Below are positions 6,424-45,175 of a stretch of 45,175 nucleotides of DNA, one piece after another (positions within the stretch are counted from its first letter, which is position 1; each line of letters begins with the position of its first letter). A model generated the notes under the pieces. That model searched no databases, was not told where the DNA came from, and saw only the letters and a program-made list of their open reading frames with translations. Both the position numbers and the translations under genes were made by a program. This DNA comes from Herbidospora galbida (GTDB lineage: Bacteria > Actinomycetota > Actinomycetes > Streptosporangiales > Streptosporangiaceae): positions 1 to 45,175 of the forward strand of contig NZ_SZQA01000049.1 in NCBI RefSeq assembly GCF_005233835.1. The letters run 5' to 3'.

Positions 6424-7215
6424 TCAGGGTTTGCGGGCCACGCCCCCGTACTGGTGGACCTCGCGGTCCCGGTAGTCGGTCAGCGTGTCGGGCCGCCACT
6501 GCGGCAGCGACACCACGCCGGGATCGAGCAGGTCGAGATCGTCGAAGAAGCGGGCCAGCGTCTCGGGAGTGCGCAGGACCAGCGGGGCGCCGCCCCGGCG
6601 TTGCCAGACGTCGGCGGCCTTCTGCATCCGCACGCTCGGCGTGCTGCTGGCGATGGCGACGTAGCTGCCCGGCGAGAGGGCGTCGACCAGGGCGTGCACC
6701 ACGTCGAACGCGAGGGTGTCGTCGGTGACGAACTCGATCACCCCCATCAGCATCAGCCCGACCGGCCGCGAGAAGTCGAGCGTCTCCGAGGCCGCCTCCA
6801 GCAGCGGGTCAGGAGAGCGCAGGTCGGCGTCGAGGTAGTCGGTGGCGCCCTCGGGCGTGCTCTCCAGGAGGGCACGGGCGTGGATCAGCACGGCGGGGTC
6901 GTTGTCGACGTACACGATCCTGGCGGCCGGGTTGATCTTCTGGGCCACCAGATGGGTGTTCCCGGAGCTCGGGATGCCGGTGCCGACGTCGAGGAACTGG
7001 TCGACGCCGAGCTCCCCCGCGAGCAAGGCGACGGCCCGGCCGATGAACTGGCGTTCGGACCGGGCGTTGATCGGCAGGTCGGGCATGACCGCCGTGATCT
7101 GGGTGGCCACCTCGCGGTCTGCCGCGAAGTTCTCGGTGCCGCCGAGCCAGTAGTCCCAGACCCGTGCCGGATGAGGTATCGAGATGTCGAGGCGCTGCCG
7201 TGGTGTACCGGCCAT
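6424..7215 (-). CDS. DUF574-family SAM-dependent methyltransferase
   Basis: A 263-residue protein of the actinobacterial S-adenosyl methyltransferase family Methyltransf_19 (DUF574). The N-terminus is diagnostic (PHPARVWDYWLGGTENFAADR), followed by the SAM-binding loop FLDVGTGIPSSGNTH (about residues 75-89) and the acidic strand end IVYVDNDPAV. The ATG at 7215 is supported by a GGAGGGAG just upstream. It reads in the same direction as the cyclase, 106 bases before it. Such genes are numerous in actinomycetes and their substrates are mostly unknown. It is not clearly linked to geosmin formation. Confidence 0.85.
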   Translation of the reverse strand: MAGTPRQRLDISIPHPARVWDYWLGGTENFAADREVATQITAVMPDLPINARSERQFIGRAVALLAGELGVDQFLDVGTGIPSSGNTHLVAQKINPAARIVYVDNDPAVLIHARALLESTPEGATDYLDADLRSPDPLLEAASETLDFSRPVGLMLMGVIEFVTDDTLAFDVVHALVDALSPGSYVAIASSTPSVRMQKAADVWQRRGGAPLVLRTPETLARFFDDLDLLDPGVVSLPQWRPDTLTDYRDREVHQYGGVARKP

Positions 7216-7319
7216 CTCCCTCCCTCCTCTCCAGCCAACATAGCTTTCCCGCCATCCCCGCACGGCGAAGCGGAGCCCGTGATCTGGTCACGAACCCCGC
7301 TCGCGGTGGGAAAATGCGG

Positions 7320-12323
<5,004 letters not shown>

Positions 12324-21757: not shown

Positions 21758-23413
21758 GTGAGGGCTGTCCTGTGGCGGGCGATCTCGGGGCAGCGCCGTG
21801 ACGTCGTCACCGGTGCCGTGCTGGGAGCCGCCCACCAGGCCGGTGAGGTCATGGTCCCGGTGCTGATCGGCGTGGTGATCGACCAGGCGGTGGCCGGGGG
21901 CGACCTGCCCGCGCTGGCCCGGTGGCTCGTCGTCCTGGCCGTCGTCTACGTCGCGCTGTCGTTCTCCTACCGCTTCGGCGCCCGCGCCGGTGAGCGCGCC
22001 GCCGAGCGGGCGGGCCACGCGCTGCGCATGGAACTCGTCGAACGGGTCCTCGACGCGCGCGGCGGCGCCGAGGAGGGCCGTCTGCCCGGCGCGCTGACCA
22101 ACACCGCGACCGAGGACGCCAAGCGCGTCGGCGCGGTCAACATGTCGGTGATGCTGGCCGTCTCCGCGCTGATGGGCATCGTGGTCGCGGCGGTCGTGCT
22201 GCTGCGCATCTCCGTTCCGCTCGGCCTGGTCGTGCTGGCCGGCACTCCCCTGCTGCTGTTCCTCGGCCACCTGCTGAGCAAGCCGCTGGAGAAGGCCAGC
22301 GAAGACCAGCAGGACCGCGCCGCGCACGCGTCCGGCGTCGCGGCCGACCTGATCAAGGGGCTGCGGGTGCTGAAGGGCATCGGCGCCGAGACGGCCGCCG
22401 TCGCCCGCTACCGGGTGACCAGCGGTGACTCCCTCGCCGCGACCCTGCGCGCGGCCCGCGCCGAGGCCCTGCAGACGGGCCTGGTCGTCGCGCTCACCGG
22501 CGTCTTCATCGCCGTCGTGGCGCTGGTCGGCGGCCGGCTGGCCGCCTCGGGTGCGATCACGCTCGGCGAGCTCGTCTCGGCGGTGGGTCTCGCGCTGTTC
22601 CTGATCGGCCCGCTGGAGGTCTTCGCCTGGGTGAACGCCCAGTTCGCGATGGGCCGGGCCTCGGCGGCCCGGATCGCGGAGGTGCTCGCCGCCCCGCACG
22701 CCATCGCCGCCGGCGCCTCGGAAGTCGCTGTTCCGATACGCGGCTCGCTCCGCCTCCGCGCCGTCTCCCACGACACCCTGAAGGGCGTCGACCTGGAGGT
22801 GGCTCCCGGTGAGGTGCTCGGAGTGGCGGCCGTCGACCCGGCCGACGCGGTCAGCCTGCTGAGCTGCCTGGGCCGGACCGCCGACCCGGCGTCCGGGACC
22901 GTGGAGCTCGACGGGGTGGCGCTGGCCGACCTCGACCCGGCCGCGCTACGCGACGTGTTACTCGTCGCCGAGCACGACGCCGACCTGTTCGAGGGCACGC
23001 TGCGCGAGAACGTCGGCGGCGCCCACCCCGAGGCGATGGCCGCGGCGGGCGCCGACGAGGTCGCCGACGAACTGCCCGACGGCATCGACGGCCACGTCAG
23101 CGAACGCGGCCAGTCGTTGTCGGGCGGTCAGCGGCAGCGGGTCGCCCTGGCCAGGGCGCTGGCGGCCGATCGCGCCGTCCTGGTCGTCCACGACCCCACC
23201 ACCGCGGTCGACGCGGTGACCGAGGCGCGCATCGCCTCCCGGTTGCGCGACGTCCGGCGCGACCGCACCACGATCCTCGTCACCACCTCCCCCGCGCTGC
23301 TCGCGGTGGCCGACCGGGTGGTGCTGCTCGACGGCGGCCGGATCACCGACGCCGCCCCGCACGCCGACCTGGTGTCCCGCAACTCCGTCTACCGGACGGC
23401 GGTGCTCGCGTGA
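21758..23413 (+). CDS. ABC half-transporter (exporter fold), degenerate ATP site; siderophore system
   Basis: A 551-residue fusion of an exporter-type membrane domain (about residues 1-310) and an ATPase domain, resembling IrtA/IrtB-like proteins that import ferric siderophores in mycobacteria. The ATPase is abnormal. The Walker A position reads GVAAVDPADAVS (355-366) with no GKS/T. The Walker B segment ends H-D479-P480 instead of D-E, so the catalytic Glu is gone. The signature LSGGQ (454-458) is intact. It can therefore complete the partner's ATP site but not hydrolyse ATP itself. The GTG at 21758 follows GGAGG. The stop overlaps the partner's GTG (GTGA). An iron box lies upstream. Confidence 0.88.
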   Translation: MRAVLWRAISGQRRDVVTGAVLGAAHQAGEVMVPVLIGVVIDQAVAGGDLPALARWLVVLAVVYVALSFSYRFGARAGERAAERAGHALRMELVERVLDARGGAEEGRLPGALTNTATEDAKRVGAVNMSVMLAVSALMGIVVAAVVLLRISVPLGLVVLAGTPLLLFLGHLLSKPLEKASEDQQDRAAHASGVAADLIKGLRVLKGIGAETAAVARYRVTSGDSLAATLRAARAEALQTGLVVALTGVFIAVVALVGGRLAASGAITLGELVSAVGLALFLIGPLEVFAWVNAQFAMGRASAARIAEVLAAPHAIAAGASEVAVPIRGSLRLRAVSHDTLKGVDLEVAPGEVLGVAAVDPADAVSLLSCLGRTADPASGTVELDGVALADLDPAALRDVLLVAEHDADLFEGTLRENVGGAHPEAMAAAGADEVADELPDGIDGHVSERGQSLSGGQRQRVALARALAADRAVLVVHDPTTAVDAVTEARIASRLRDVRRDRTTILVTTSPALLAVADRVVLLDGGRITDAAPHADLVSRNSVYRTAVLA

Positions 23414-25134
23414 GCCGCGAACTGCTCCCCGTCGCCACGGCGGCCCGCACCCGCGCGGTGCTGTTCGACCTGATCCGTCCCTATCGCGCGCTGGCCCTCG
23501 GCGGGTTCGCCGTGATGATCGTGGCCACCTCGATCGGGCTGCTCACCCAGCCGCTGCTCGGCGCCATCGTCGACCTGGTCGACGCCGGGGAGCCCGCCGC
23601 CGCGATCACGACGCCGGTGCTGGCGCTGGTCGCGGTCGCGGTCACCCAGGGCGGCGCGATGACCCTCGGGCTGGCGCTGGTGTCGCGGCTCGGCGAGACC
23701 GTGCTGGCCCGGCTGCGCGAGCGGTTCGTCGACCGGGCGATGCGGCTGCCGCTCGAACAGGTCGAGCGGGCCGGGTCGGGCGACCTGACCGCCCGCGTGA
23801 CCGGCGACGTCTCCCTGATCGCCGAGGCCGTCCGGGTCGCGCTGCCCGAGATGGCCCGCTCGGGCCTGGCGATCGTGCTCACCCTGGGCGCGCTGGCCAT
23901 CCTCGACTGGCGGTTCCTGCTGGCCGCGCTGATCTCGGTGCCGGTCCAGTGGCACACCGCGCGCTGGTACGTCCGCAACGCCGGTCCCCTCTACGCCCGC
24001 CAGCGGGTGGCCGGAGGCGCCCAGCAGCAGCAGCTCCTCGACACCATCGGCGGCGCGAAGACCGTGCGGGCGTTCCGGCTGGAGGCCGACCACACGGCCA
24101 AGGTCGCCGAACGCTCCAACACCGCCGTGGCGCTGACCCTCAAGGGCGTCAACCTGGTGCTGCGCTTCTACAGCCGCCTGCACGTCGCCGAGTACGCCGG
24201 CCTGGCCGCCGTGCTGGTCGCCGGGTTCTTCATGGTCCGGTCGGGCGCCGCCTCGATCGGCACGGCGACCGCCGCCGCCCTCTATTTCCACTCCCTGTTC
24301 GCCCCGGTGAACACCGCCCTGGTGCTGATCGACGACGCCCAGTCGGCGGGCGCCGCGCTGGCCCGCCTGGTCGGCGTCATCGACCAGCCCGAACCGGCCG
24401 CCCTCGACCGGCCGAAGGCCCCGCGGATCGAGGTCTCCGGGCTCGGCCACGCCTACGACGAGGGCCGGCCCGTGCTGCACGACGTCGACCTCACGATCCG
24501 CGAAGGCGAACGGGTCGCCCTGGTCGGCGCGAGCGGCGCCGGGAAGACGACCCTGGCGAGGCTGATCGCCGGCATCCACCGGCCGTCGAAGGGCACGATC
24601 GCCGTCCCCGGCGAGGTCGGCATGGTCACCCAGGACGTGCACGTCTTCGCCGGTCCGCTGGCCGACGACCTGCGGCTGGCCCGGCCCGACGCCACCGACG
24701 CCGACCTGCGCGAAGCGCTGACCAGGGTCGACGCGCTCACCTGGGCCGAGACCCTGCCCGACGGGCTGGCCACGGTCGTCGGCGAGGGCGGCCACCGCCT
24801 CACCGCGACCCAGATCCAGCAGCTCGCGCTGGCCCGGCTGATCCTGGCCGACCCGCCCGTGGCCGTGCTCGACGAGGCGACCGCCGAGGCGGGCAGCGCC
24901 GGGGCGCGGGTGCTGGAGAAGGCCATCGAGACCACCATCGAGGGCCGCACGGCCCTCATCGTCGCCCACCGCCTCACCCAGGCTGCGGCGACCGACCGCG
25001 TCGTCGTCATGGACGGCGGCCGCATCGTGGAGAGCGGCCCGCACGACGAGCTGCGCTCCTCCGGCGGCCGGTACGCCTCCCTCTGGGAGGCGTGGTCCGG
25101 AGTCCGCCCCACCAGTGAAAACCCCCTCGAATAA
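23410..25134 (+). CDS. ABC half-transporter (exporter fold), catalytic partner
   Basis: A 574-residue partner of the preceding half-transporter: membrane domain about residues 1-335, then an ATPase with intact Walker A GASGAGKT (373-380, Lys379) and Walker B ending D488-E489 (VLDEAT), but a ruined signature, LTATQ (464-468) in place of LSGGQ. In an ABC dimer each ATP site combines Walker A/B of one subunit with the signature of the other. This pair therefore has one complete site and one doubly degenerate site. The overlap with the first gene (GTGA) predicts stoichiometric synthesis. Co-transcription with a siderophore-binding lipoprotein suggests iron-siderophore import, though export cannot be excluded. 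Confidence 0.88.
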   Translation: MSRELLPVATAARTRAVLFDLIRPYRALALGGFAVMIVATSIGLLTQPLLGAIVDLVDAGEPAAAITTPVLALVAVAVTQGGAMTLGLALVSRLGETVLARLRERFVDRAMRLPLEQVERAGSGDLTARVTGDVSLIAEAVRVALPEMARSGLAIVLTLGALAILDWRFLLAALISVPVQWHTARWYVRNAGPLYARQRVAGGAQQQQLLDTIGGAKTVRAFRLEADHTAKVAERSNTAVALTLKGVNLVLRFYSRLHVAEYAGLAAVLVAGFFMVRSGAASIGTATAAALYFHSLFAPVNTALVLIDDAQSAGAALARLVGVIDQPEPAALDRPKAPRIEVSGLGHAYDEGRPVLHDVDLTIREGERVALVGASGAGKTTLARLIAGIHRPSKGTIAVPGEVGMVTQDVHVFAGPLADDLRLARPDATDADLREALTRVDALTWAETLPDGLATVVGEGGHRLTATQIQQLALARLILADPPVAVLDEATAEAGSAGARVLEKAIETTIEGRTALIVAHRLTQAAATDRVVVMDGGRIVESGPHDELRSSGGRYASLWEAWSGVRPTSENPLE

Positions 25135-25143
25135 GGAAATTCG

Positions 25144-26223
25144 ATGCTCGGCATTACGAGAGGCATCCGGTTCGCCGCGGTGCTCGCCTCCTCCCTCCTG
25201 CTCGGCACCGTCGCCGCCTGCGGGTCGTCGTCGGAGACGGCAACCCCCGCCGCGTCGGCCCCGGCCGCCCCTCCGGCCGGCACGACCGCCCCCGCCGCCG
25301 CCTTCCCGGTGACGATCGAGCACAAGTTCGGCGCCACGACCATCCCGGCCGCGCCGCAGCGCGTCTTCACCGTCGGCCTGACCGACCAGGACGCCGCCAT
25401 CGCGCTCGGCGTCGTCCCCGTCGGCACCACCAACTGGTTCGGCGGCTTCCCCGGCGCGATCGGCCCGTGGGCCACGCCGAAGCTGAACGGCGCCCCCGTC
25501 CCGACCCTGCTGGAGGACCCGGGCACCGGCCCGCAGGTCGAGAAGATCGCCGCGCTCAAGCCCGACCTGATCCTCGCCCTGTACGCCGGCCTGACCAAGG
25601 AGCAGTACGAGACCCTGTCGAAGTTCGCCCCGGTCGTCGCGCAGCCGGCGGCGTACAACGACTACGGCATCCCGTGGCAGGAGCAGACTCTGATCACCGG
25701 CAAGGCCCTCGGCAAGGAGACCGAGGCCAAGGCGCTGGTCGACGAGGTCGAGACCAAGTTCAAGACGATGGCCGCCGAGCACCCCGAGTTCGCCGGCAAG
25801 AAGGCCGTCGTGGCCACGCCCTATGAGGGCTTCTTCGTGTACGGCAGCCAGGACACCCGCTCCCGCAACCTCGTCTCGCTCGGCTTCAGCCTGCCCGCCG
25901 ACCTCGACTCGGTGATCGGCGACAAGTTCGGCGCCAGCATCTCCAAGGAGCGCAGCGACCTGCTCGACCAGGACCTCATCATCTGGACGGTCCCCGACAC
26001 GAAGAAGGACGTCGAGACGCTGCACAAGGACGCCGTCTACAAGGACATGAAGGTCGTCGCCGAGGGCCGCGAGGTCTTCGTCGGCGAGAGCACCAACTAC
26101 GGTGTGGCGTTCTCGTTCGTGACGGTGCTGTCGCTCCCGTACGTCCTCGACCGGCTGGTGCCGCAGCTGGCCCAGGCGATCGACGGCGACCCCGCGACCA
26201 AGGTGGAGCCCGCCGCCGACTGA
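25144..26223 (+). CDS. Iron-siderophore-binding lipoprotein
   Basis: A 359-residue periplasmic-binding protein of the FecB/FhuD type, anchored as a lipoprotein. The signal peptide ends in a lipobox with Cys26 (LGTVAACGSSS), followed by an Ala/Pro/Thr-rich linker to about residue 55. The binding fold has two lobes. Family features include PAAPQRVFTVGLTDQDAAIALGV at the start and EKIAALKPDLILALYAG for the first lobe, with a long bridging helix after FAPVVAQ. It lies 9 bases behind the second half-transporter, with AAGGAA before the ATG. No FecCD-type permease is adjacent, so the exporter-fold pair is its likely partner. The iron box upstream predicts induction by iron starvation. Confidence 0.92.
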   Translation: MLGITRGIRFAAVLASSLLLGTVAACGSSSETATPAASAPAAPPAGTTAPAAAFPVTIEHKFGATTIPAAPQRVFTVGLTDQDAAIALGVVPVGTTNWFGGFPGAIGPWATPKLNGAPVPTLLEDPGTGPQVEKIAALKPDLILALYAGLTKEQYETLSKFAPVVAQPAAYNDYGIPWQEQTLITGKALGKETEAKALVDEVETKFKTMAAEHPEFAGKKAVVATPYEGFFVYGSQDTRSRNLVSLGFSLPADLDSVIGDKFGASISKERSDLLDQDLIIWTVPDTKKDVETLHKDAVYKDMKVVAEGREVFVGESTNYGVAFSFVTVLSLPYVLDRLVPQLAQAIDGDPATKVEPAAD

Positions 26224-26233
26224 TCACCGGCAG

Positions 26234-26268
26234 GGCCGGGAGGGGTCCGCGTGGATCACCTCCCGGCC
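26234..26268. terminator. Bidirectional terminator between convergent operons
   Basis: A perfect 10-bp stem GGCCGGGAGG / CCTCCCGGCC with a 15-base loop lies just after the siderophore-binding gene stop. On the other strand it overlaps the last codons of the ureohydrolase gene (stop at 26258-26256). It probably serves both converging operons. Confidence 0.65.
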
Positions 26269-27242
26269 GGCAGCACGCTGATCAGCTCGTACAGGGCGTG
26301 CGCGGCGGCGATGCCGGTGAGCTCGGCGTGGTCGTAGGCGGGGCTGACCTCGACCAGGTCGGCTCCCACCACATGCAGGCCGTCGAGCCCGCGCAGAACC
26401 TCCAGCAGTTCGCGGCTGCTCATCCCGCCGGCCTCCGGCGTGCCGGTGCCCGGTGCGTATGCCGGGTCCAGGACGTCGATGTCGAGCGAGACGTAGACCG
26501 GCCGGTCGCGCAGCCGGTCGCGGACGCGCTCGATGATCTCGTCGAGCGATCGCCGGGCGAAGTCCCGGGCGTGCACCGCGGCGAAGCCGAGCCGCTTGCT
26601 CTCGTCGAGGTCCAGACGGGAGTACAGCGGGCCGCGCAGGCCCACGTGCATCGAGTGCGCGTGGTCGATCAGGCCCTCCTCGGCGGCCCGCCGGAAGGGG
26701 GTGCCGTGGGTGTACGGCGAGCCGAAATAGGTGTCCCAGGTGTCCAGGTGGGCGTCGAAGTGCAGGACGGCGACCGGCCCGTACCGCTCGTGGTGGACGC
26801 GCAGCAGCGGCAGGGCGATCGTGTGGTCGCCGCCGAGGGTGATCAGCTTGCGACCGGTGCCGGCGAGTTCGGCGGCGGCCCGCTGGATCGTCTCCAGCGC
26901 GCTGCCGATGTCGAAGGGGTTGACCCCGACGTCTCCGGCGTCGGCGACGAGCCGGGTGGCGAACGGCGCGGTGTCGAGGGCCGGGTTGTACGGGCGCAGC
27001 AGCCGGGACGACTGCCGGATGTGCCCGGGGCCGAACCGCGCCCCGGGCCGGTAGCTGACCCCGGTGTCGAAGGGGACGCCCCAGATGACGGTGTCCGCGC
27101 CGGGCTGGTCCTGCAGCCGGGGCAGCCGGGCGAAGGTGTTCTCCCCCGCGTAGCGCGGGACGATCGTCGCGTCGACGGGGCCGCCCGGCGCGGAGCGGGG
27201 CTGGTCGAGCGCCGAGACACCGGCTGAGATGTCGGGAATCAC
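26256..27242 (-). CDS. Agmatinase-family ureohydrolase
   Basis: A 328-residue enzyme of the arginase/agmatinase superfamily, which uses two Mn ions to hydrolyse a guanidino group to urea plus an amine. Metal ligands are H140 (GGDHT), D163-A-H165-L-D167 (FDAHLDTW), and D254 and D256 (SLDIDVLDP). The segment [10 protein letters not shown] matches agmatinases and guanidino-acid hydrolases better than arginases, so a decarboxylated or otherwise modified guanidino substrate is likely. The start is the GTG at 27242, overlapping the upstream stop (GTGA). It is the last gene of an eight-gene ABC importer/hydrolase operon. This suggests the imported compound, or a product of its hydrolysis, carries a guanidine or similar group. 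Confidence 0.9.
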
Positions 27243-28843
27243 GCGTGCCCGCCCAGCCGGTCGAGGACCGTGCGGGTGACGTGCTCGACGAACCAGTCGC
27301 GGTGGATCAGGCCGGCCACCCATTCGGAGGTGCCGGAGTTGAAGACGGTCCCCTCGCCCCGGGTGAAGGTGGCCATCATGGCCGAGCCGTAGGTGGGCCG
27401 TCTGGTGCCGTCGTCCCGCTCGACCCAGTGGGTGTCGCGGTACTCCTCGATCCCCGCCAGGCCGGGGTCGCCGAGCGGCACCGCGCCCGCGAAGTGGTCC
27501 TCCTCGTAGCGGACGGCGGGTCCCATCGCGATGATCTCCAGGTTGCCGGGGGCGCCGTCGGCGCCGGTGGCGAAGGGCAGTCCGTCCCGTACGACATGGG
27601 CGCAGCCGTCGACCTCGAAGGTGGCGATCCGGGCGGGGTGCCCGCCGAGGAGGTCGCCGTAGTAGAGGTCGGTGCCGGCCAGCGTCCAGTGCTCGGGCCG
27701 ATAGACCTGCAGGCCGCCGTGGCCGCGTGGCGCGGAGGCGCCGTAGCCGGCGTACACCCCGGCGAATCCGGTCAGGCCCATGGTGGCCGTGGCGGGGCGG
27801 CCGATGAGGGGGTGGTCCCAGTGCAGGGTGACCAGGTGCTGGTCGGGGGTGCCGAAGACCGGGTCGTCCTCGGGCACGTACTTGTGGCAGATCTGGGTGG
27901 TGCCCTCGATGCGCACCTGCCAGCAGAAGTTGGCGCCGAACCGGGCGACGTTGCCGCCGCGGTCCACCAGGGCGTCGATCGCGTCGCGCATCCGCCACGA
28001 CCAGTATTCGTCGTGGCCGACCAGGACCGCGCACTGGTAGCCGTCGAGGGCGGACGGGTCGCGGTCCAGGTCGTCCTGGGTGAGGTAGTCCAGGACGTAG
28101 CCCTGCTGCTCGGCCCAGACGGCGAAGGGCCGTTCGTAGGTGGCCCAGAACGCGTCGGCGTGGTGGCGGCCGTAGTCGCGCAGCCGCGCCCACTCGTACA
28201 CCGGATAGCGCGGTTCCCAGAACGGCGGAACATGCTCCTCGTACCGGTTGCGCGGGGCCCCCGGCGGCTTGCGCAGGAACCCGCGTGACAGCGGGCGGAG
28301 CATGGAGAGCCGGGGCGAGGCGACGTCCACGGCGGGGTCGTCGCCGAGGCCCCGGTAGGCGTTGGCGCCGCCCCAGTCGTTGTAGGACAACAGCGTGCTG
28401 GTGGTCAGGACGAGCGCGTAGGGGGTGCGCCGGCCGGGCTCGGCCGAGCGGACCACGAAGAAGTGCTCGTTCTCCACGACCTGGCCGCCCGCCTCGGCCC
28501 GGATGATGATCAGGTACATGGCCGACGGCCAGTCGCCGGGGATGGCGATGCGCGCGGTGACGGGCCACCCGCAGCCCTCTGCGTAGGCGTCGGCCGGGGT
28601 CTCCGGCGCGGTGCCCGGCAGGTCGGTCTGCCGGTGGACGACCTCGGGGTGCGCGCCGTCGCGGATCACGGTGAGGGAGTAACGGTCGGCCGTGGTGTAC
28701 GCGGACACCTCCACGGTCTCCCCCGGGCCATAGGAGAAGCGGTCGGTGTAACACCAGGCATCCAGCCCCTCCCCGGTCGGCCGCGGCGAGGGCCAGCCGG
28801 GCGGGGACCAGGCGGAGCGCGGGACGGGGTAGGCGCCGCTCAT
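27239..28843 (-). CDS. N,N-dimethylformamidase large-subunit-like hydrolase
   Basis: A 534-residue protein resembling the large subunit of N,N-dimethylformamidase, an unusual amidase with a mononuclear iron held by two Tyr and one Glu. Conserved-looking blocks include [14 protein letters not shown] (Y154), [16 protein letters not shown] (about 245-260) and VGHDEYWS (H277, E279), which probably hold the metal ligands. It is shorter than characterised large subunits (about 760) and no separate small subunit is visible. The ATG at 28843 overlaps the cupin stop (ATGA). There is no signal peptide. The in-operon importer and ureohydrolase suggest that it cleaves a C-N bond of a small imported amide or related compound. 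The assignment rests on family resemblance. Confidence 0.75.
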
Positions 28844-29205
28844 CGCGCACCTCCCGGGATCCCGACGAAGATCTTCTCGGTCGCTTCGAGGGTGTGCCAC
28901 CAGCCGTCGAACCCGGCCGGCACCAGGAAGGACTCCCCCGCCCCGAATTCGCGCCGGCCGCCCTCGGCGTCCTCGATCGCCACCCGTCCGCGCAGCAGGA
29001 CGCAGACCTCGTGGTAGGGCCAGCTCGGGATGCGCACCGAACCGGGGGCGCCCTCCCAGGCGCCGGCCAGCGCGCCGGGGACGTCGAGGCGGGCCCGGTG
29101 CTCGACCTCCCGCCAGCCCGGGGAGACCTCGGCGTAGTCGGTCGGCGGCGGGACCACGGTCACGCCGTCCCTCTTGGAGATCGTCTGGACGTCGAGAACT
29201 GTCAT
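28840..29205 (-). CDS. Cupin_3 (DUF861)-type small protein
   Basis: A 121-residue single-domain cupin of the Cupin_3/DUF861 type, related to ureidoglycine aminohydrolase and EutQ-like folds. Typical text is [24 protein letters not shown], then [34 protein letters not shown] and EKIFVG. The usual metal-binding His set is reduced: H65 or so in YHEVC and H104 or so in WWHTLE remain. It might be an enzyme or a binding/regulatory subunit. The start overlaps the upstream ATPase stop and its stop overlaps the next start (both ATGA), so it is tightly tied to the amidase-like protein. One possibility is that it acts as an accessory subunit for that enzyme. Confidence 0.75.
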
Positions 29206-29999
29206 AGGGGACGTGCCTCCTCGGCCGCGGACAGTGCCGGGCCGTCCATGCGCGGCGTGGCCGCGACCAGCGATCGGGTGTACTCGTGCCGCGGATGACG
29301 CAGCACGTCGTCGGGCAGGCCGCGTTCGACGATCTCGCCGCGGTGCATGACCGCGAGCTCGTCGGCGACGTAGCGCGTCACCGCCAGGTCGTGCGAGATG
29401 AAGAGCATGGTCAGGTCGAGCCGGGCGCCGAGGTCGCGCAGGGTGTTGAGCACGGCCGCCTGGACGGAGACGTCCAGGGCGGAGACCGCCTCGTCGGCGA
29501 TGAGCACCTCGGGTTCGACGGCGAGCGCGCGGGCGATGCCCACCCGCTGCCGTTGCCCGCCGGACAGGCCGCGCGGGCGGGCGTCCAGGACGGCCGCGCC
29601 CAGGCCGACCAGCTCCAGCAGTTCGACGGCGCGGTCGGTGGCGGCCCGCCGGTCGGCGACCTTGCGGTGCACCAGCAGCAGCTCGGTCAGGGTCCGCCGG
29701 ACGGTGTGCATCGGGTTCAGCGCCGAGCCGGGGTCCTGGAAGACCATCTGGATGCGGGTGGCGTCGGCCCGGCCGCGCGGTGTGGGCAGCACCGCGCCGC
29801 CGAGCCGGACGGTGCCCGAGGCGGGCGCGGCGAGCCCGGCGATGACCCGGGCCAGGCTGGACTTGCCGCAGCCCGACTGCCCGACCAGGCCGAGGGTACG
29901 GCCGCGCGGGATGTCCAGGCTGACGTGGTCCACGGCCGGGTGAGCGGACCGGTAGTCCACCACGACGTCGTCCACCTGGAGCAGCGGAGCGGCCCTCAT
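29202..29999 (-). CDS. Peptide/nickel-type ABC importer ATPase (DppF/OppF-like)
   Basis: A 265-residue ATPase of the oligopeptide/nickel importer family. Walker A is GQSGCGKSS, the Q-loop is MVFQDPGSALNP, the signature is LSGGQRQR, and Walker B ends ADEAVSALDV (family usually DEPVSALD). The switch His is in ISHDLAVTRYVAD. It lacks the long cysteine-bearing C-terminal extension of its partner. The ATG at 29999 overlaps the stop of the DppD-like gene (ATGA). It should pair with the DppD-like ATPase under the two permeases. Confidence 0.9.
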   Translation of the reverse strand: MRAAPLLQVDDVVVDYRSAHPAVDHVSLDIPRGRTLGLVGQSGCGKSSLARVIAGLAAPASGTVRLGGAVLPTPRGRADATRIQMVFQDPGSALNPMHTVRRTLTELLLVHRKVADRRAATDRAVELLELVGLGAAVLDARPRGLSGGQRQRVGIARALAVEPEVLIADEAVSALDVSVQAAVLNTLRDLGARLDLTMLFISHDLAVTRYVADELAVMHRGEIVERGLPDDVLRHPRHEYTRSLVAATPRMDGPALSAAEEARPL

Positions 30000-31021
30000 G
30001 CCGTCCCTCCCCCCAGTGGGCTGACCAGGGCCTTCCGGTCCAGCGGCGGCCCGCCGAGGTCCGCCACCCGCAGGCACGCGCTCCTCGACGGCGACCCGGG
30101 CACCTCGGCCAGGGTGTGCGCCAGTCCGGCGCAGGCGGGCAGGGCGTGCGCGCACCGGGGGGCGAACCGGCAGCCCTCCGGCCGGTCCGCCGCTCCGGGC
30201 TGGCCGCCGGGGATGGCCGCGAGCGGCCGGTCCCTTGGAGTGTCCGGTGTCGGCATGGAGCGCAGCAGGCCCGCGCTGTACGGATGGGTCGGCCGGGTGA
30301 AGACCTCGTCGACGGTCCCGGTCTCGACCACCTGGCCCGCGTACATCACCGCGACGCGGTCGCACAGCCGCCGGACGACCCCCAGGTCGTGGGTGACGAA
30401 CACGATCGACAGCCCGCGCTCGACGCGGATGCGATGCAGCAGCCGCAGGATCTGGTCCTGCACGGCGACGTCGAGAGCGGTCGTCGGCTCGTCGCACAGC
30501 AGCACCGACGGCTCGGTGGCCAGCGCCATCGCGATCATGACGCGCTGGCGGAGCCCGCCGGAGAGCTGGTGCGGCCACATCCGGGCCTGCGCCGCCGGGT
30601 CGGGCATGCCGACCTCGGCGAGCAGGTCCACCGCACGGCTCCGGGCGGTCCGCCGGCTCCAGCCGTGGCGGGCCCGCGGCCCGGCGGTGACCAGGTCGCC
30701 GATCCTCATGGTGGGGTTGAGCGCGGTCATCGGCTCCTGGAACACCATGCCGATGCCCCGGCCGCGCGCCTCGGCGAACCGGTAGGGCCGCAGCGCGCCG
30801 TCGCGCTCCAGCTCCAGGGTGCCGCCGGCCTGGCGGACGCCCTCGGGCAGCAGCCCGGTCACGGCGCGCAGGGTCAGGCTCTTGCCCGAACCCGACTCGC
30901 CGACCAGCCCGAACGCCTCGCCGTGGGCGACCTCGAAGCCGGCGTGGGACACCGGGCGCAGCGGAGCGTCGGCGGTGCCGGTCTCCAGGACGAGGTCGGT
31001 GATCCGCAGGACAGGGGTCAT
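29996..31021 (-). CDS. Peptide/nickel-type ABC importer ATPase (DppD/OppD-like)
   Basis: A 341-residue ATPase with Walker A GESGSGKSL, Q-loop MVFQEPMTALNP, signature LSGGLRQR, Walker B LLCDEPTTALDV and switch VTHDLGVV. The C-terminal extension carries the family's cysteine cluster (GCRFAPRCAHALPACAG), which in relatives can bind an iron-sulfur cluster. Start and stop both overlap neighbours (ATGA), so the whole importer is made as one block. It energises transport of the ligand of the binding lipoprotein encoded first in the operon. Confidence 0.91.
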   Translation of the reverse strand: MTPVLRITDLVLETGTADAPLRPVSHAGFEVAHGEAFGLVGESGSGKSLTLRAVTGLLPEGVRQAGGTLELERDGALRPYRFAEARGRGIGMVFQEPMTALNPTMRIGDLVTAGPRARHGWSRRTARSRAVDLLAEVGMPDPAAQARMWPHQLSGGLRQRVMIAMALATEPSVLLCDEPTTALDVAVQDQILRLLHRIRVERGLSIVFVTHDLGVVRRLCDRVAVMYAGQVVETGTVDEVFTRPTHPYSAGLLRSMPTPDTPRDRPLAAIPGGQPGAADRPEGCRFAPRCAHALPACAGLAHTLAEVPGSPSRSACLRVADLGGPPLDRKALVSPLGGGTA

Positions 31022-31857
31022 CGCTGCAGCCTCCGCTCCAGGCCGCCGGCGATGAGCCGGACGGCGACGCCGACGAGGATGATCGCCAGTCCGGGCATCA
31101 CCGACACCCACCACTGGTTGCGCAGGAAGGGCTGCCCCTCGGCGATCATCTGCCCCCACTCGATCCCCGGCGCCTGGATGCCCAGGCCGAGGTAGGACAG
31201 CGCCGCGAGATAGCTCAGCGCGAGCACGATGTCGGAGGCCGCGTAGACCACGGCCTGTGGCAGGGCGTTGGGCAGGACGTGCCGCAGCAGGACGCGAGTG
31301 TGCCCGAGCCCGGCGGCCTGGGCCGCCCGGACGTAGTCGAGCTCCCGCAGCCGCAGCACCACCCCGCGGACGAGCCGGGCGTAGGTCACCCAGGCGCCCA
31401 CCGCGGCCCCGACCAGGAACGATCCGGCGCCCGGCCCGAGCAGGAAGACCAGGACGATCAGCAGGATGTAGGACGGGAACGCCTGGATCAGGTCGGCCAG
31501 CCGCATGACCGCGGTGCCGATCCAGCCCCGGGCGTACCCGGCGAGCGCGCCGAGCACGATCCCGATCACGGCCGGCACGGCGGCCCCAAGCAGGGCCAGC
31601 GGCAGGTCGGTCCCCGCCGCGACGAGCACCCGGGCGAAGACGTCGCGGCCGAGCTGGTCGGTGCCGAACCAGTGCTCGGCGGTGGGCGGGCGGAACCGGG
31701 CGGTCAGGTCGGTGAGCGCCGGGTCGTGGCCGGTCAGCGCGCCGGCCGCGAAGCTCGCGGCCAGCAGGAGAGTCAGCAGCACCGCGCCGGTCACCAGGGC
31801 GGTGGCGCCGGAGCCGCGCCGGGCCCGGCGGCGGCCGAGCACCTGGACGAGGGCCAT
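31018..31857 (-). CDS. Peptide/nickel-type ABC permease (DppC-like)
   Basis: A 279-residue inner-membrane permease with an N-terminal anchor helix, then the DppC hallmark TAEHWFGTDQLGRDVFARVLVA and about five further helices. The cytoplasmic EAA-like coupling loop reads YVRAAQAAGLGHTRVLLRHVLPNAL. The ATG at 31857 shares one base with the stop of the DppB-like gene. It forms the channel with the DppB-like subunit. Confidence 0.91.
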   Translation of the reverse strand: MALVQVLGRRRARRGSGATALVTGAVLLTLLLAASFAAGALTGHDPALTDLTARFRPPTAEHWFGTDQLGRDVFARVLVAAGTDLPLALLGAAVPAVIGIVLGALAGYARGWIGTAVMRLADLIQAFPSYILLIVLVFLLGPGAGSFLVGAAVGAWVTYARLVRGVVLRLRELDYVRAAQAAGLGHTRVLLRHVLPNALPQAVVYAASDIVLALSYLAALSYLGLGIQAPGIEWGQMIAEGQPFLRNQWWVSVMPGLAIILVGVAVRLIAGGLERRLQR

Positions 31858-32804
31858 CACACCTCCACGCGAGGGTCGAGGAGGGCGACCAGGACGTCGC
31901 CGACCAGGTTGACCGCCACGACGGCCAGGGAGAACACGAGGGTCAGGCCCTGGATGACGTTGAAGTCGCGGTTCTGCGCGGCCTGGGTCAGGCTCAGCCC
32001 GAGCCCCGGCAGCCCGAAGGTCGACTCCACGACGACCGCGCCGGACAGCAGCAGCGTCGTGAGGGCGGCCAGCAGCGACACCGGCGGCACGGCCGCGTTG
32101 CGCAGCACGAACCGGCGGGTCAGCGTCCAGCCCCGCACGCCGGCGGCCTGGGCGGCGGCGTGGTACTCCGAACGCCGCGCCTCGACGATGCCGCTGCGCA
32201 GGCTGGCCATCAGGACCGGCGCGACCGAGACGCTGAGGGCCAGGGCCGGCAGCACCGCGGCGCGCAGCACCGTGGCGGGGGTGTCGCCCCAGCCGCCGAT
32301 CGGGAACGCTCCAGTGGGCAGCGCCACCCCGGCCAGCAGCACGATCCCCAGCCAGAAGGTCGGGACGCCGACGCCGAAGGCGGCCACCACGTTGATCAGC
32401 CGGTCGGCCAGGCCGTCGGGCCTGCGGGCGGCGAGCAGGGCCGTCGCGCCGGCGATGACGACGGTGAAGACGGTGCTGACGGCGAGCAGCACCAGCGTCA
32501 CCGGCGTGCCCGACGCGATCAGGGTGCTGACCTTGGTCGAGCCCGTCGCGGTGGTGCCGAGGTCGCCGGTCGCGACCCGGCCGAGGTAGTGGACGAACTG
32601 CAGCCACACCGGCTGATCGAGGCCCAGATGGACCCGGATCGCCTGGAGCGTCGCGGCGCTCGCCCGGGGCCCGGCCACCTGCAGGGCCGGGTCGCCGGGG
32701 ACCACCTTGAGCATGGCGAAGACGAGGAGGAGCAGCACCAGCGTCAGCGGGATCGCCTGCAGCAACCGCCTGCCGACGAACCAGAACCGTCCGCGGCCGG
32801 TCAT
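31857..32804 (-). CDS. Peptide/nickel-type ABC permease (DppB-like)
   Basis: A 315-residue permease with six predicted helices. The N-terminus is typical of DppB (RRLLQAIPLTLVLLLLVFAMLKVVPGDPA), followed by LGLDQPVWLQFVHYLGRVATGDLG. The coupling loop is EYHAAAQAAGVRGWTLTRRFVLRNA. The start lies 4 bases after the stop of the binding-protein gene, so it is cotranscribed and probably coupled. It forms a heterodimeric pore with the DppC-like protein. Confidence 0.92.
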   Translation of the reverse strand: MTGRGRFWFVGRRLLQAIPLTLVLLLLVFAMLKVVPGDPALQVAGPRASAATLQAIRVHLGLDQPVWLQFVHYLGRVATGDLGTTATGSTKVSTLIASGTPVTLVLLAVSTVFTVVIAGATALLAARRPDGLADRLINVVAAFGVGVPTFWLGIVLLAGVALPTGAFPIGGWGDTPATVLRAAVLPALALSVSVAPVLMASLRSGIVEARRSEYHAAAQAAGVRGWTLTRRFVLRNAAVPPVSLLAALTTLLLSGAVVVESTFGLPGLGLSLTQAAQNRDFNVIQGLTLVFSLAVVAVNLVGDVLVALLDPRVEV

Positions 32805-32808
32805 CGGA

Positions 32809-34359
32809 TCACGACCCGGTGCGGATCCGGACCGCGGCGGCGTCGTAGGACAGGAACGGCGTGGCGGTGAAGCCCTCGACGTAGTCCGCCACCGCGAACG
32901 CCGTCGACATGTTGACCAGGCCGATCACCGTCGACTGCGCCTGGGCGTCGTCCTGGATGGCCCGCACGGCGGCGTCCTTGACGGAGTCCTCGGTGGTGGT
33001 GGTGCCCTCGGTGAACTTCTCCTTCAGCAGCGCCGAGTCAGCGCCGGTCCAGGGCGACCAGGCGGCCAGGACGAAGCTGATCGGGTCGAACACCGTGGGC
33101 GAGATCGCCGACAGGTCGCTGATGAGCATGTCGTAGTCGCCGCTCTGGCCCTGGGAGTAGACCGTGGCGCTGTCGCTGGGCTTGAGCGTCACGTCGACGC
33201 CGATCTGGGCGAGCTGGTCGCGCAGCAGCTGGGCCATGGTGGTGAGCGTCGAGCTGGCGCCCTCGAAGCCGAGGGTGAGCGTGACCGGCTTCTGGTCGGC
33301 GCGCTTGGCCATCAGCGCCTTGGCGGCGGCCAGGTCGAAGGTGTACGGCGTGGTGGGCGGCACCGAGTTGGGCACGTTGGTCGGCAGCATGCCCGTGGCC
33401 GGGACCACGTAGCCCTGCTGGACGCTGGCCAGCGCCTGGCGGTCGATCGCGGCGGAGATGGCCTTGCGCAGGTTGACGTCGGCCAGGGCCGGCCGCTTGC
33501 TGTTGAGCATGAGGTCCCGGGCCTGGCTCGGCTTGGGGATACGCGCCTGCTCGGCGGGGAGCTGGTTGCCCTCGTCGGCGGTGAGGCCCTCGATCAGGTC
33601 GAGCTGGCCCCCTTGGAAGGCGAGCATCTGCTGGGCGGCGTCGGCCGAGGTCTTGGTGATCACCGTGTCGACGTGGGGCTCGCCCTTGGCGGCGCCGTAG
33701 TAGTGGGGGTTCTTCTTCAACGTGATCGTCTCGGACGGGCCGGGGTTCTGCCAGGAGACGAACGCGAACGGGCCGGCGCCGATCGGCTTGGTGAAGAACT
33801 CCTCGGGCTTCTTCCCGGCGTAGTCGTGGGGGTAGACCGTCGAGGTGCACCAGGTCAGCAGCGCCGGCAGGAACGTGTCGGGGCGGGTGAGGTGGACCAC
33901 GACGGTGTGCTCGTCGGGGGCCTCGGCGCTCTTGACCATGTCGTAGTAGGCGCCGCTGGTCTTGCCGTCGCGCCACTGCTCGAAGGAGAAGGCGACGTCC
34001 TTCCCGGTGACCGGGGAGCCGTCGCTGAAGCCGGCGTCCTCGCGCAGGTGGAAGGTGTAGGTGCGGGCGGAGGCGTCGTAGTCGTAGGACGCGGCGATGC
34101 CGGGCTGCACGCCCGAGCCGTCCGGCTTGTTGGTGAGCAGGTTGCCGTAGATCATCGGCATCGTCGAGATCGACCCCGCGCCGTAGCAGGAGTCTCCCGA
34201 CATGCCGTCGACGGCGACGGTACGGCCGATGACGAGGTCGTTGTCCGCCTTGACGGCTCCGGTGCCGGAGCCCCCGGCGGCGCCGCCGGTTCCCGAGCCG
34301 CAGCCGGCGACCAGCGCGGCGGCGGCCAGGGCGGCGGCCGGCTTGGTCCATGTGTTCAT
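32809..34359 (-). CDS. Peptide/nickel-type solute-binding lipoprotein (DppA-like, SBP_bac_5)
   Basis: A 516-residue extracellular solute-binding protein of family 5. The signal peptide ends in a lipobox with Cys20 (AAALVAGCGSG), followed by a Gly-rich linker. Family features include TFHLREDAGFSDGSPVTGKDVAFSFEQW (about residues 100-130), IGAGPFAFVSW and LRKAISAAIDRQALA. This family binds peptides, nickel complexes, opines or other small cationic or amide compounds, so the fold does not fix the ligand. The ATG at 34359 is chosen over one 12 bases upstream because it gives the compact basic signal start MNTWTK. It heads the eight-gene operon and diverges from a TetR gene. Confidence 0.92.
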   Translation of the reverse strand: MNTWTKPAAALAAAALVAGCGSGTGGAAGGSGTGAVKADNDLVIGRTVAVDGMSGDSCYGAGSISTMPMIYGNLLTNKPDGSGVQPGIAASYDYDASARTYTFHLREDAGFSDGSPVTGKDVAFSFEQWRDGKTSGAYYDMVKSAEAPDEHTVVVHLTRPDTFLPALLTWCTSTVYPHDYAGKKPEEFFTKPIGAGPFAFVSWQNPGPSETITLKKNPHYYGAAKGEPHVDTVITKTSADAAQQMLAFQGGQLDLIEGLTADEGNQLPAEQARIPKPSQARDLMLNSKRPALADVNLRKAISAAIDRQALASVQQGYVVPATGMLPTNVPNSVPPTTPYTFDLAAAKALMAKRADQKPVTLTLGFEGASSTLTTMAQLLRDQLAQIGVDVTLKPSDSATVYSQGQSGDYDMLISDLSAISPTVFDPISFVLAAWSPWTGADSALLKEKFTEGTTTTEDSVKDAAVRAIQDDAQAQSTVIGLVNMSTAFAVADYVEGFTATPFLSYDAAAVRIRTGS

Positions 34360-34422: not shown

Positions 34423-34436
34423 CTATCGACCGATAG
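34423..34436. promoter_or_regulatory. Putative TetR operator
   Basis: CTATCG-AC-CGATAG is a perfect 6-2-6 palindrome, 64 bases upstream of the binding-protein start and 113 bases upstream of the TetR start, in the only intergenic region shared by the two divergent units. A weak -35-like TTGTGT lies just beyond it on the minus strand, so a bound repressor would cover that promoter. Confidence 0.5.
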
Positions 34437-34537: not shown

Positions 34538-34552
34538 ATGATGCTCACATGA
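34538..34552 (+). CDS. Four-codon leader cistron (MMLT) before the TetR gene
   Basis: GGAGGA (34527-34532) is followed 5 bases later by ATG ATG CTC ACA TGA, which encodes only MMLT. Its stop overlaps the TetR ATG (ATGA, 34549-34552). The Shine-Dalgarno is well placed for this cistron but 16 bases from the TetR start, so the regulator is probably translated by coupling or reinitiation. Confidence 0.5.
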   Translation: MMLT

Positions 34553-35211
34553 CCCGAGGCGGAGGAGTCACCAGAGACCGGATCCTCGTGGAGGCCTCGC
34601 GGCTGTTCGCCGAGCGCGGCTACCACGGCACGTCCACCCGCGACATCGCCGACAAGGTCGGGATGCGGCAGCCCTCGATCTACAGCCACTTCGCGACCAA
34701 GCACCTCATCCTGGCCGAGCTGCTCGACGCCGACCTGGTCCCCGCGCGGGCGCGCATCCGCGCCGCCCTGGACCTGGCCGGCCCGGTGGCCGCCCGGCTG
34801 CACGCCTATCTGCAGGTGGACGTCGCCGCGATCCTGTCGCTCCCCTACGACGTCCGCGGGCTGTACAACGACGACGTGCTGCGCGCCCCGGAGCTCGCCG
34901 AGCAGGCCGGGCGGCGGGCGGAGATCCACGACCTGACCCGCGAACTCATCGAGGCGGGCATCCACGGCGGCGAACTGGTCCCCTTCGACACCGGCTTCGT
35001 CCAGCACGCGATCACCGGCCTCCTGCTGGAGGTGGTGCGGGAGCGCGGCGCCGCCCCCTCCGGCGCGCCCGCCGCCCGCGCCCTTGACGTGGCCGACTTC
35101 GTCCTGCGCGCCGTCCTCGTCGAGGCCGGCACGCTGGACGACGTCCGTGCGAAGGCCGGCGCCCTCGTCCCCGACATCACCGCCATGGCCACCCCCCGCC
35201 CCGTGGCCTGA
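34549..35211 (+). CDS. TetR-family regulator
   Basis: A 220-residue TetR repressor. The HTH lies at residues 10-50 (ILVEASRLFAERGYHGTSTRDIADKVGMRQPSIYSHFATK), a close match to the family consensus. The C-terminal helical ligand domain contains YDVRGLYNDDVLRAPELAE and a dimerisation-type end. It diverges from the ABC importer/hydrolase operon, with a 6-2-6 palindrome between them, so local repression relieved by the imported compound or a metabolite is likely. It also lies next to the convergent NRPS-mbtH operon, which it might influence. The start is the ATG overlapping the leader cistron. Confidence 0.9.
   Translation: MTRGGGVTRDRILVEASRLFAERGYHGTSTRDIADKVGMRQPSIYSHFATKHLILAELLDADLVPARARIRAALDLAGPVAARLHAYLQVDVAAILSLPYDVRGLYNDDVLRAPELAEQAGRRAEIHDLTRELIEAGIHGGELVPFDTGFVQHAITGLLLEVVRERGAAPSGAPAARALDVADFVLRAVLVEAGTLDDVRAKAGALVPDITAMATPRPVA

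Positions 35212-35646: not shown

Positions 35647-35650
<4 letters not shown>
35453..35650 (-). CDS. mbtH: MbtH-like NRPS accessory protein
   Basis: A 65-residue MbtH-family protein, which binds NRPS adenylation domains and is often needed for their folding and activity. It has the full signature: NPFENPDG, then S24-L-W26-P (GQHSLWPEF), VPAGW36, R-x-x-C48-L and W56-T-D-M-R-P near the end. The ATG at 35650 is chosen because it overlaps the NRPS stop (ATGA) and gives the normal family length. Upstream in-frame codons lie inside the NRPS. Translational coupling to the synthetase makes this its dedicated partner. Confidence 0.95.

Positions 35651-45175
<9,525 letters not shown>

Follow-up and report, generated by a model that had tools for sequence, protein, structure and literature searches.

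The dimethylformamidase (DMFase) of Paracoccus is an iron enzyme whose metal ligands are Y399, Y440, and E521 and in which H519, N547, and E657 are essential; its large subunit is inactive by itself and needs the small subunit DmfA1 (PMC7686228). In the supply route for azalomycin in actinomycetes, an arginine monooxygenase yields 4-guanidinobutyramide, from which a hydrolase releases 4-guanidinobutyric acid (PMC5082578). Among ureohydrolases, Arg72 of the guanidinobutyrase GbuA caps the neighboring active site and could contact the substrate carboxylate, and a human enzyme annotated as agmatinase hydrolyzes guanidino acids and not agmatine (PMC9772407), while Trp68 of Escherichia coli agmatinase stabilizes the agmatine amine (PMC8125230). 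Here we describe a unit of nine genes in Herbidospora galbida that brings together an importer, a cupin, a DMFase-like hydrolase, and a ureohydrolase under a divergent regulator. The window analyzed is one whole contig of 45,175 bases within the 8.3-Mb genome of this actinomycete.

Our findings lead us to propose, tentatively but as a real possibility, that the unit serves the uptake of a guanidino-acyl amide, its conversion to a guanidino acid (probably 4-guanidinobutyrate), and the cleavage of that acid to urea and an omega-amino acid (gamma-aminobutyrate [GABA]). Every part of the operon comes from a known family, and it is the combination and its likely role that appear to be undescribed. 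The original prediction knew of no characterized pathway with this gene set, and this still holds: in the open-licence PubMed Central (PMC) literature we found no paper that links these families, that joins dimethylformamidase with agmatinase, or that names PF20254 or "dimethylformamidase-like." DMFase-like proteins are numerous (at least 591 confirmed matches in one scan), and we know of very few whose substrate has been established. A conserved partner with a predictable substrate class, the guanidino acids, narrows the search for such a substrate to a few compounds and would tie the DMFase-like family to guanidine nitrogen cycling.

Organization and conservation of the unit

The unit comprises the following features.

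32809..34359, minus strand: family-5 solute-binding lipoprotein of the importer (Pfam SBP_bac_5, 1.4e-77)
31857..32804, minus strand: Opp/Nik-type permease 1 (Pfam BPD_transp_1)
31018..31857, minus strand: Opp/Nik-type permease 2 (Pfam BPD_transp_1)
29996..31021, minus strand: importer ATPase 1 (Pfam ABC_tran and oligo_HPY)
29202..29999, minus strand: importer ATPase 2 (Pfam ABC_tran, 7.7e-33; oligo_HPY under its cut-off)
28840..29205, minus strand: small Cupin_3 protein (Pfam Cupin_3, 3e-12)
27239..28843, minus strand: DMFase-like amide hydrolase (Pfam DMFA2_C, PF20254, 2.6e-62)
26256..27242, minus strand, GTG start: ureohydrolase, predicted guanidino-acid hydrolase, guanidinobutyrase-like (Pfam Arginase, 2e-96)
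34549..35211, plus strand: divergent TetR-family regulator (TetR_N), retained in each of the four genomes that carry the unit
34423..34436, no strand assigned: candidate operator palindrome CTATCG-N2-CGATAG, inside the gap between the TetR gene and the gene for the solute-binding protein

Open reading frame calling and Pfam analysis reproduced all eight minus-strand genes (26256-34359) with their domain assignments and bore out the tight packing described for them: a gap of 4 bases separates the binding-protein gene from permease 1, the two permease genes overlap by 1 base, and each of the last five genes overlaps the preceding one by 4 bases. The TetR gene is an addition to that list. It would control the catabolic operon, and the palindrome in the gap is perfect in three of the four genomes and has one mismatch in the fourth (G033). 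The ribosome-binding stretch ahead of the ATG of the binding-protein gene (34359) is well kept across the compared genomes. Searches for sigma-70-type promoters and terminators gave nothing above chance. Control by a guanidine riboswitch was set aside, as no riboswitch of any kind matched at Rfam gathering thresholds in the window and seven related loci, where the sole match was a tRNA in one locus (L019).

All nine genes recur in unchanged order in three other genomes, one of the same genus (G003), one of another genus of the family (G033), and a third (G006), with amino acid identities of 87 to 98% per protein (89 to 91% for TetR); since the order recurs at such identity, the arrangement is not due to chance. 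At E <=1e-40 the hydrolase has a match in 5 of 100 relatives (own genome included), one merely 41% identical, and it is present in three of the seven genomes of the genus, own included.

A nonribosomal peptide synthetase (NRPS) gene (35647-45159, minus strand) terminates roughly 0.4 kb beyond the TetR gene, and it had been suggested that the operon might process or recycle the NRPS product. We consider this highly improbable, as the adjacency is seen only in the H. galbida genome. In the 19.9 kb fetched around the unit in each of the three other genomes, stretches that extend only 3.1 to 3.6 kb past the TetR gene, the NRPS of the window has no match, and the core of the unit recurs among other neighbors in other genomes. 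The complementary proposal, a stand-alone unit of importer plus hydrolases to be sought in other actinomycetes, is upheld by the four genomes that carry it whole, three of them with conserved order and no NRPS found near it.

A probable guanidino-acid hydrolase

The translation of the ureohydrolase contains GGDH, DAHxD, and DxD, the metal motifs of ureohydrolases. Its solved relatives rank in the order guanidinobutyrase (6e-81), guanidinopropionase (1.5e-74), proclavaminate amidino hydrolase (7e-71), and agmatinases (3e-62). In pairwise alignments with hand-counted positions, Arg83 aligns both with Arg72 of GbuA and with Trp68 of E. coli agmatinase, so that the GbuA-type residue is present and the agmatinase residue is not; the RPYN stretch that holds Arg83 is identical to that of guanidinobutyrase. 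Arg83 and the loop HFDAHLDTW(D/E)TYFGxx(Y/F)THGTPFRRA occur in every aligned module copy, that is, in copies found with the DMFase-like hydrolase, and in three relatives from outside the module. From these residues the enzyme is probably a guanidino-acid hydrolase and not an agmatinase. The original prediction of an agmatinase-family enzyme was thus right as to the ureohydrolase family, while Arg83 points away from agmatinase itself.

An agmatinase identity would suit another scheme, in which an imported acyl-agmatine is split to agmatine and a true agmatinase then forms putrescine and urea. Acyl-agmatines occur as plant amides, two NCBIfam agmatinase models score over their cut-offs for the ureohydrolase (TIGR01230 at 232.9 versus a cut-off of 174.3), and an aminobutyraldehyde dehydrogenase stands beside the hydrolase-cupin-ureohydrolase triad in two Actinomadura loci. 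With Arg83 in the Trp68 column, an RPYN stretch as in guanidinobutyrase, and agmatinases lower among the solved relatives, the agmatinase identity is weakened and we regard this scheme as very unlikely.

The neighbors of the three non-module relatives are compatible with 4-guanidinobutyrate metabolism, in settings that would match two routes to this compound. The first adjoins a thiamine pyrophosphate enzyme whose best NCBIfam match is a hypothetical subfamily (342 bits) and whose second is 5-guanidino-2-oxopentanoate decarboxylase (314 bits, under the cut-off of 500); the 2-ketoarginine route leads to 4-guanidinobutyrate. The second lies on a Tsukamurella plasmid (L130, 1-12963) beside an amino acid permease, a C-N hydrolase, and a flavin amine oxidase, a cluster that perhaps represents the arginine monooxygenase route, and the third is about 3 kb from an aminobutyraldehyde dehydrogenase. 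The ureohydrolase also has a counterpart of GpuA Tyr157, a residue of the PYTHG loop reported to act in the specificity of that enzyme, and this leaves room for 3-guanidinopropionate as the substrate. Two further ureohydrolases of the H. galbida genome are 39 and 31% identical to the operon copy.

The DMFase-like hydrolase, the cupin, and the importer

A model of the hydrolase built from 52 sequences, which replaced a discarded 5-sequence model with a predicted local distance difference test score (pLDDT) of 49, reached a mean pLDDT of 90.9 and a predicted template modeling score of 0.93. Foldseek matched it strongly to two proteins only, N-acetyl-(R)-beta-phenylalanine acylase (3e-23; TM-score over the model 0.62) and Paracoccus DMFase (1e-17; 0.52 to 0.54 for the DMFase chains); the next match is at 6e-5. 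The hydrolase has both the PF20254 domain and the fold of a DMFase. When the hydrolase was aligned with four DMFase-type large subunits from plasmid records, all three MAFFT modes gave Y154, E279, H277, N305, and E410 as counterparts of Y399, E521, H519, N547, and E657, and none of the five, nor Y163, varies among the 52 hydrolase rows. A profile alignment with DMFase (hhalign, probability 99.9, 19% identity) gave the same counterparts except that it shifted Y399 by one residue; it left Y440 unaligned. The DMFase-like enzyme is presumably iron dependent.

The small subunit of DMFase has no counterpart here: neither the window, nor any of 24 module loci, nor the H. galbida genome gave a tblastn match to Paracoccus DmfA1 (E <1), whereas the same search found the partner gene in all three other DMFase-like plasmid loci used as a control. 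As a separate observation, on plasmid pcAMD1 of Aminobacter niigataensis MD1 (L142) a DmfA1-like gene precedes the gene for a DMFase-like large subunit, a small hypothetical gene follows it, and transposase genes are nearby. The description "dimethylformamidase-like" given in the original prediction accordingly fits the fold and the catalytic counterparts and overstates the match otherwise, the small subunit being missing and the nearest solved relative being an N-acyl-beta-amino-acid acylase.

This relationship opens a different scheme, which we think somewhat unlikely, in which the hydrolase strips an acyl group (formyl, acetyl, or larger) from a guanidine-bearing amine and the deacylated guanidino acid becomes the substrate of the ureohydrolase. 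The acylase is the best match by profile as well as by fold, and related Rhizobiales hydrolases have class-III aminotransferases next to them and BKACE and deacetylase-like genes in the vicinity (each family named from one representative), but Pfam finds no gene for handling acyl-CoA, formate, or an acyl acid in the eight-gene unit, and the ureohydrolase relatives have neighbors indicative of 4-guanidinobutyrate, a compound that derives from an acid-side amide.

In the absence of DmfA1, the cupin draws attention by its position. Its gene occupies the place of dmfA1 in the Paracoccus DMFase operon, and both overlap the gene for the large subunit or hydrolase by 4 bases, which makes the cupin a candidate partner; it may be a partner or stabilizing subunit of the hydrolase, an idea limited by its absence from 5 of 21 distant hydrolase loci (see below). 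Metal-dependent cupin enzymes are recognized by conserved metal-binding histidines, and the corresponding H65 and H104 vary across 11 cupin sequences, all of which keep WPY-x-E-x-C (W62-P63-Y64, E66, C68). From this pattern, the protein is unlikely to be a typical metal-dependent cupin enzyme.

The five remaining genes have the makeup of an Opp/Nik-type ATP-binding cassette (ABC) importer: a family-5 solute-binding protein, two permeases, and two ATPases. No NCBIfam model scored over its cut-off for the binding protein, and the closest solved chain, the agropinic-acid binder AgaA (6hlx, 3e-31), is too distant to indicate a ligand.

A core shared with distant loci

Distant loci were collected from a scan of named genomes for the DMFase-like hydrolase (the best 80 of the at least 591 matches), a class-level search (hydrolase at E <=1e-100 in 11 of 394 genomes, own included), a single-genus search (8 of 15 genomes), and a plasmid search. 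We compared 21 of them together, counting by hand from the comparison rows; their hydrolase is about 50 to 59% identical to ours (59 and 67% for L119, which is in two pieces), L018 (Herbidospora cretacea, with the same unit) duplicates L014 and was kept out of the count, and class-search loci at 40 to 41% were left out. A ureohydrolase at least 60% identical to the operon copy occurs in 13 of the 21. Eight of these 13 come from one genus, on which the counts lean, and the other five are from Metallococcus, a Catenulispora metagenome-assembled genome, two Actinomadura, and one genome of another family, a span of at least five genera and three families. Wherever both hydrolases occur in these loci, their genes stand together. 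The cupin is found in 16 loci (it is absent from L019, L021-L023, and L098), and an APC permease in 17, mostly replacing the ABC importer; L021-L023 have Opp-type ABC genes, without cupin or ureohydrolase. In L119 the module hydrolase gene is interrupted (matches in two frames and one in-frame TAG), while its cupin and ureohydrolase genes are open.

The swapping of the importer indicates that it is exchangeable, and the trio of hydrolase, cupin, and ureohydrolase tends to stay together within one clade. The dedicated importer of the original prediction is not a constant part of the system. Separation of the hydrolases from the importer and from each other had been named as what would speak against a joint pathway, and half of it is observed: the importer is swapped and the ureohydrolase is missing from 8 of the 21 loci, but the two hydrolases keep together when both are present. 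The same counts favor a looser view, in which importer and hydrolases are co-transcribed under one regulator and act on different nitrogen compounds, as does the mixing of module and non-module ureohydrolases in their tree. We judge this unlikely, since 4-base overlaps join cupin, hydrolase, and ureohydrolase in the Herbidospora unit and the three families are co-located in several distant genera.

In a hydrolase tree of 48 rows (L119 left out), all the ureohydrolase-bearing rows fall within one 24-row set with support of 100/98. The ureohydrolase tree interleaves module and non-module copies with modest support, a pattern compatible with repeated pairing though short of proof of it, and the association of this hydrolase clade with guanidino-acid hydrolases may have arisen repeatedly. 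The trees do not establish that the pair arose once, as the label is clustered as tightly in 128 of 500 shuffles of the hydrolase tree and the ureohydrolases interleave. Of the 80 scan loci, 69 have a hydrolase under 50% identical, and three of these 69 have a ureohydrolase match, at about 7 kb (L027) and 9 kb (L033) from the hydrolase and, in L067, at 1.4 kb on the other strand (46%). Besides its intact hydrolase (9842-11566), L067 (Rhizobium lusitanum) also holds, in the stretch 6484-8653, a broken piece of a second DMFase-like gene, followed after 0.8 kb by a ureohydrolase gene of low identity (28%).

Other DMFase-like genes keep different company. In 25 of the best 80 loci, mostly from Rhizobiales, such a gene lies within 3.5 kb of a class-III aminotransferase (e.g., L077, 11499-12914), and BKACE, GNAT, and deacetylase-like genes occur in many of them, each family named from one representative; this is a different, widespread DMFase-like pathway. 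In eight loci (L036, L049, L060, L063, L071, L079, L082, and L099) the gene directly before the DMFase-like one encodes a protein of about 826 amino acids that contains two stretches of CoA-transferase III, as named from L036.

Proposed pathway

Under the guanidino-acyl amide pathway, the Opp-type importer would take up a small amide bearing a guanidino group, the simplest candidate substrate being 4-guanidinobutyramide or an N-substituted form of it. The DMFase-like hydrolase, in which active-site counterparts are seen, would then cut the amide and free a guanidino acid, most likely 4-guanidinobutyrate and possibly 3-guanidinopropionate. Judging from one binding-site residue and the neighbors of its relatives, the ureohydrolase would convert this acid to urea and GABA or beta-alanine, and the products could be used by a urease and a GABA transaminase, both of which score over their cut-offs elsewhere in the H. 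galbida genome. Sister clusters carry an aminobutyraldehyde dehydrogenase (over cut-off in L026; the L029 copy is 89% identical) or a succinate-semialdehyde-dehydrogenase-like gene (under cut-off in L020 and L117; by annotation in L098), and because of these dehydrogenases and the GABA transaminase and urease in the genome we favor the C4 case, 4-guanidinobutyrate to GABA.

A Novosphingobium cluster has a LysR gene and a small hypothetical gene followed by UAAP1, UAAP2, and a urea-carboxylase gene, and these neighbors point to guanidine nitrogen, by proximity only; we presume that the UAAP proteins are those reported as carboxyguanidine deiminases. Proteins annotated for urea metabolism have been so reported (reference in PMC12186494).

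Several observations weigh against this pathway. With an N-acylase as the closest solved relative of the hydrolase, the guanidino group could sit on the amine side, and the second iron tyrosine, Y440, maps to Y163 in only one of the three MAFFT modes (the long-gap mode) and to L190 in the other two. The agmatinase models score over cut-off, and Trp68 is reportedly not conserved among other putative agmatinases (PMC8125230), so it is not a strict criterion for agmatinase. The eight distant loci without a ureohydrolase mean that the substrate of the hydrolase need not be a guanidine, and among the 20 labelled rows of the hydrolase tree the ureohydrolase label requires 3 changes, a value as low in the 128 of 500 shuffles mentioned above. 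Finally, a CehA/McbA-type metallohydrolase of about 840 amino acids (family named from L113 and L118) occurs in 11 of the 21 distant loci and has only a weak relative (36% identity) elsewhere in the H. galbida genome, so one step may be missing here.

Taken further, the locus could represent an undescribed route in which a DMFase-type iron hydrolase lacking its small subunit, with a metal-free cupin replacing DmfA1, feeds a guanidino-acid hydrolase and lets soil actinomycetes live on an unrecognized natural or man-made guanidino-acyl amide; in this full form the idea is doubtful.

Neighboring genes in the window

The NRPS gene encodes four condensation, three AMP-binding, and three carrier stretches and may be cut, as 16 bases separate its 5' end from the contig end. 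Convergent with the operon, 21758-26223 (plus strand) encodes two ABC exporter-type half-transporters and a Peripla_BP_2 protein, which looks like a siderophore set and may belong with the NRPS. Farther away, 6424-9674 (minus strand) encodes a 784-amino-acid protein with two terpene synthase stretches, which we take to be geosmin-synthase-like, adjoining a Methyltransf_19 gene.

Comparison with known systems

Metformin hydrolase and GdmH resemble the operon ureohydrolase in being enzymes of the ureohydrolase family that obtain nitrogen from guanidines; the operon enzyme matches metformin hydrolase chains at 7e-20 to 6e-18 and "probable agmatinase 2," which we take to be GdmH, at 4e-42, compared with 6e-81 for GbuA. 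We know of no DMFase-like partner for either enzyme.

The arginine monooxygenase route (PMC5082578), with the Tsukamurella plasmid cluster, shares with our proposal an amide and then a guanidino acid as intermediates, and the ureohydrolase of that cluster belongs to the same subfamily as the operon copy. The cluster differs in having a C-N hydrolase plus a flavin amine oxidase where the operon has the DMFase-like enzyme, and no ABC importer appears among the 14 features compared.

N-acetyl-(R)-beta-phenylalanine acylase (8huy, 8i5a; function as given in the PDB title) is the top solved relative of the hydrolase (profile 1e-19), at about 15% identity and with a longer chain of 772 to 776 amino acids. 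DmfA1A2 of Paracoccus (6lvb; PMC7686228) shares fold, family, and the five invariant active-site counterparts, while the Herbidospora hydrolase is shorter (534 versus 762 amino acids), 19% identical by profile alignment, and accompanied by a cupin where dmfA1, without a homologue in the loci searched, would stand. GbuA and GpuA (3nio, 3nip) are the best-scoring solved relatives of the ureohydrolase, which keeps the Arg72 counterpart and has an 11-residue loop in common with GpuA; in contrast to both, the Herbidospora enzyme, with its predicted specificity for guanidino acids, stands behind a DMFase-like hydrolase and an importer.

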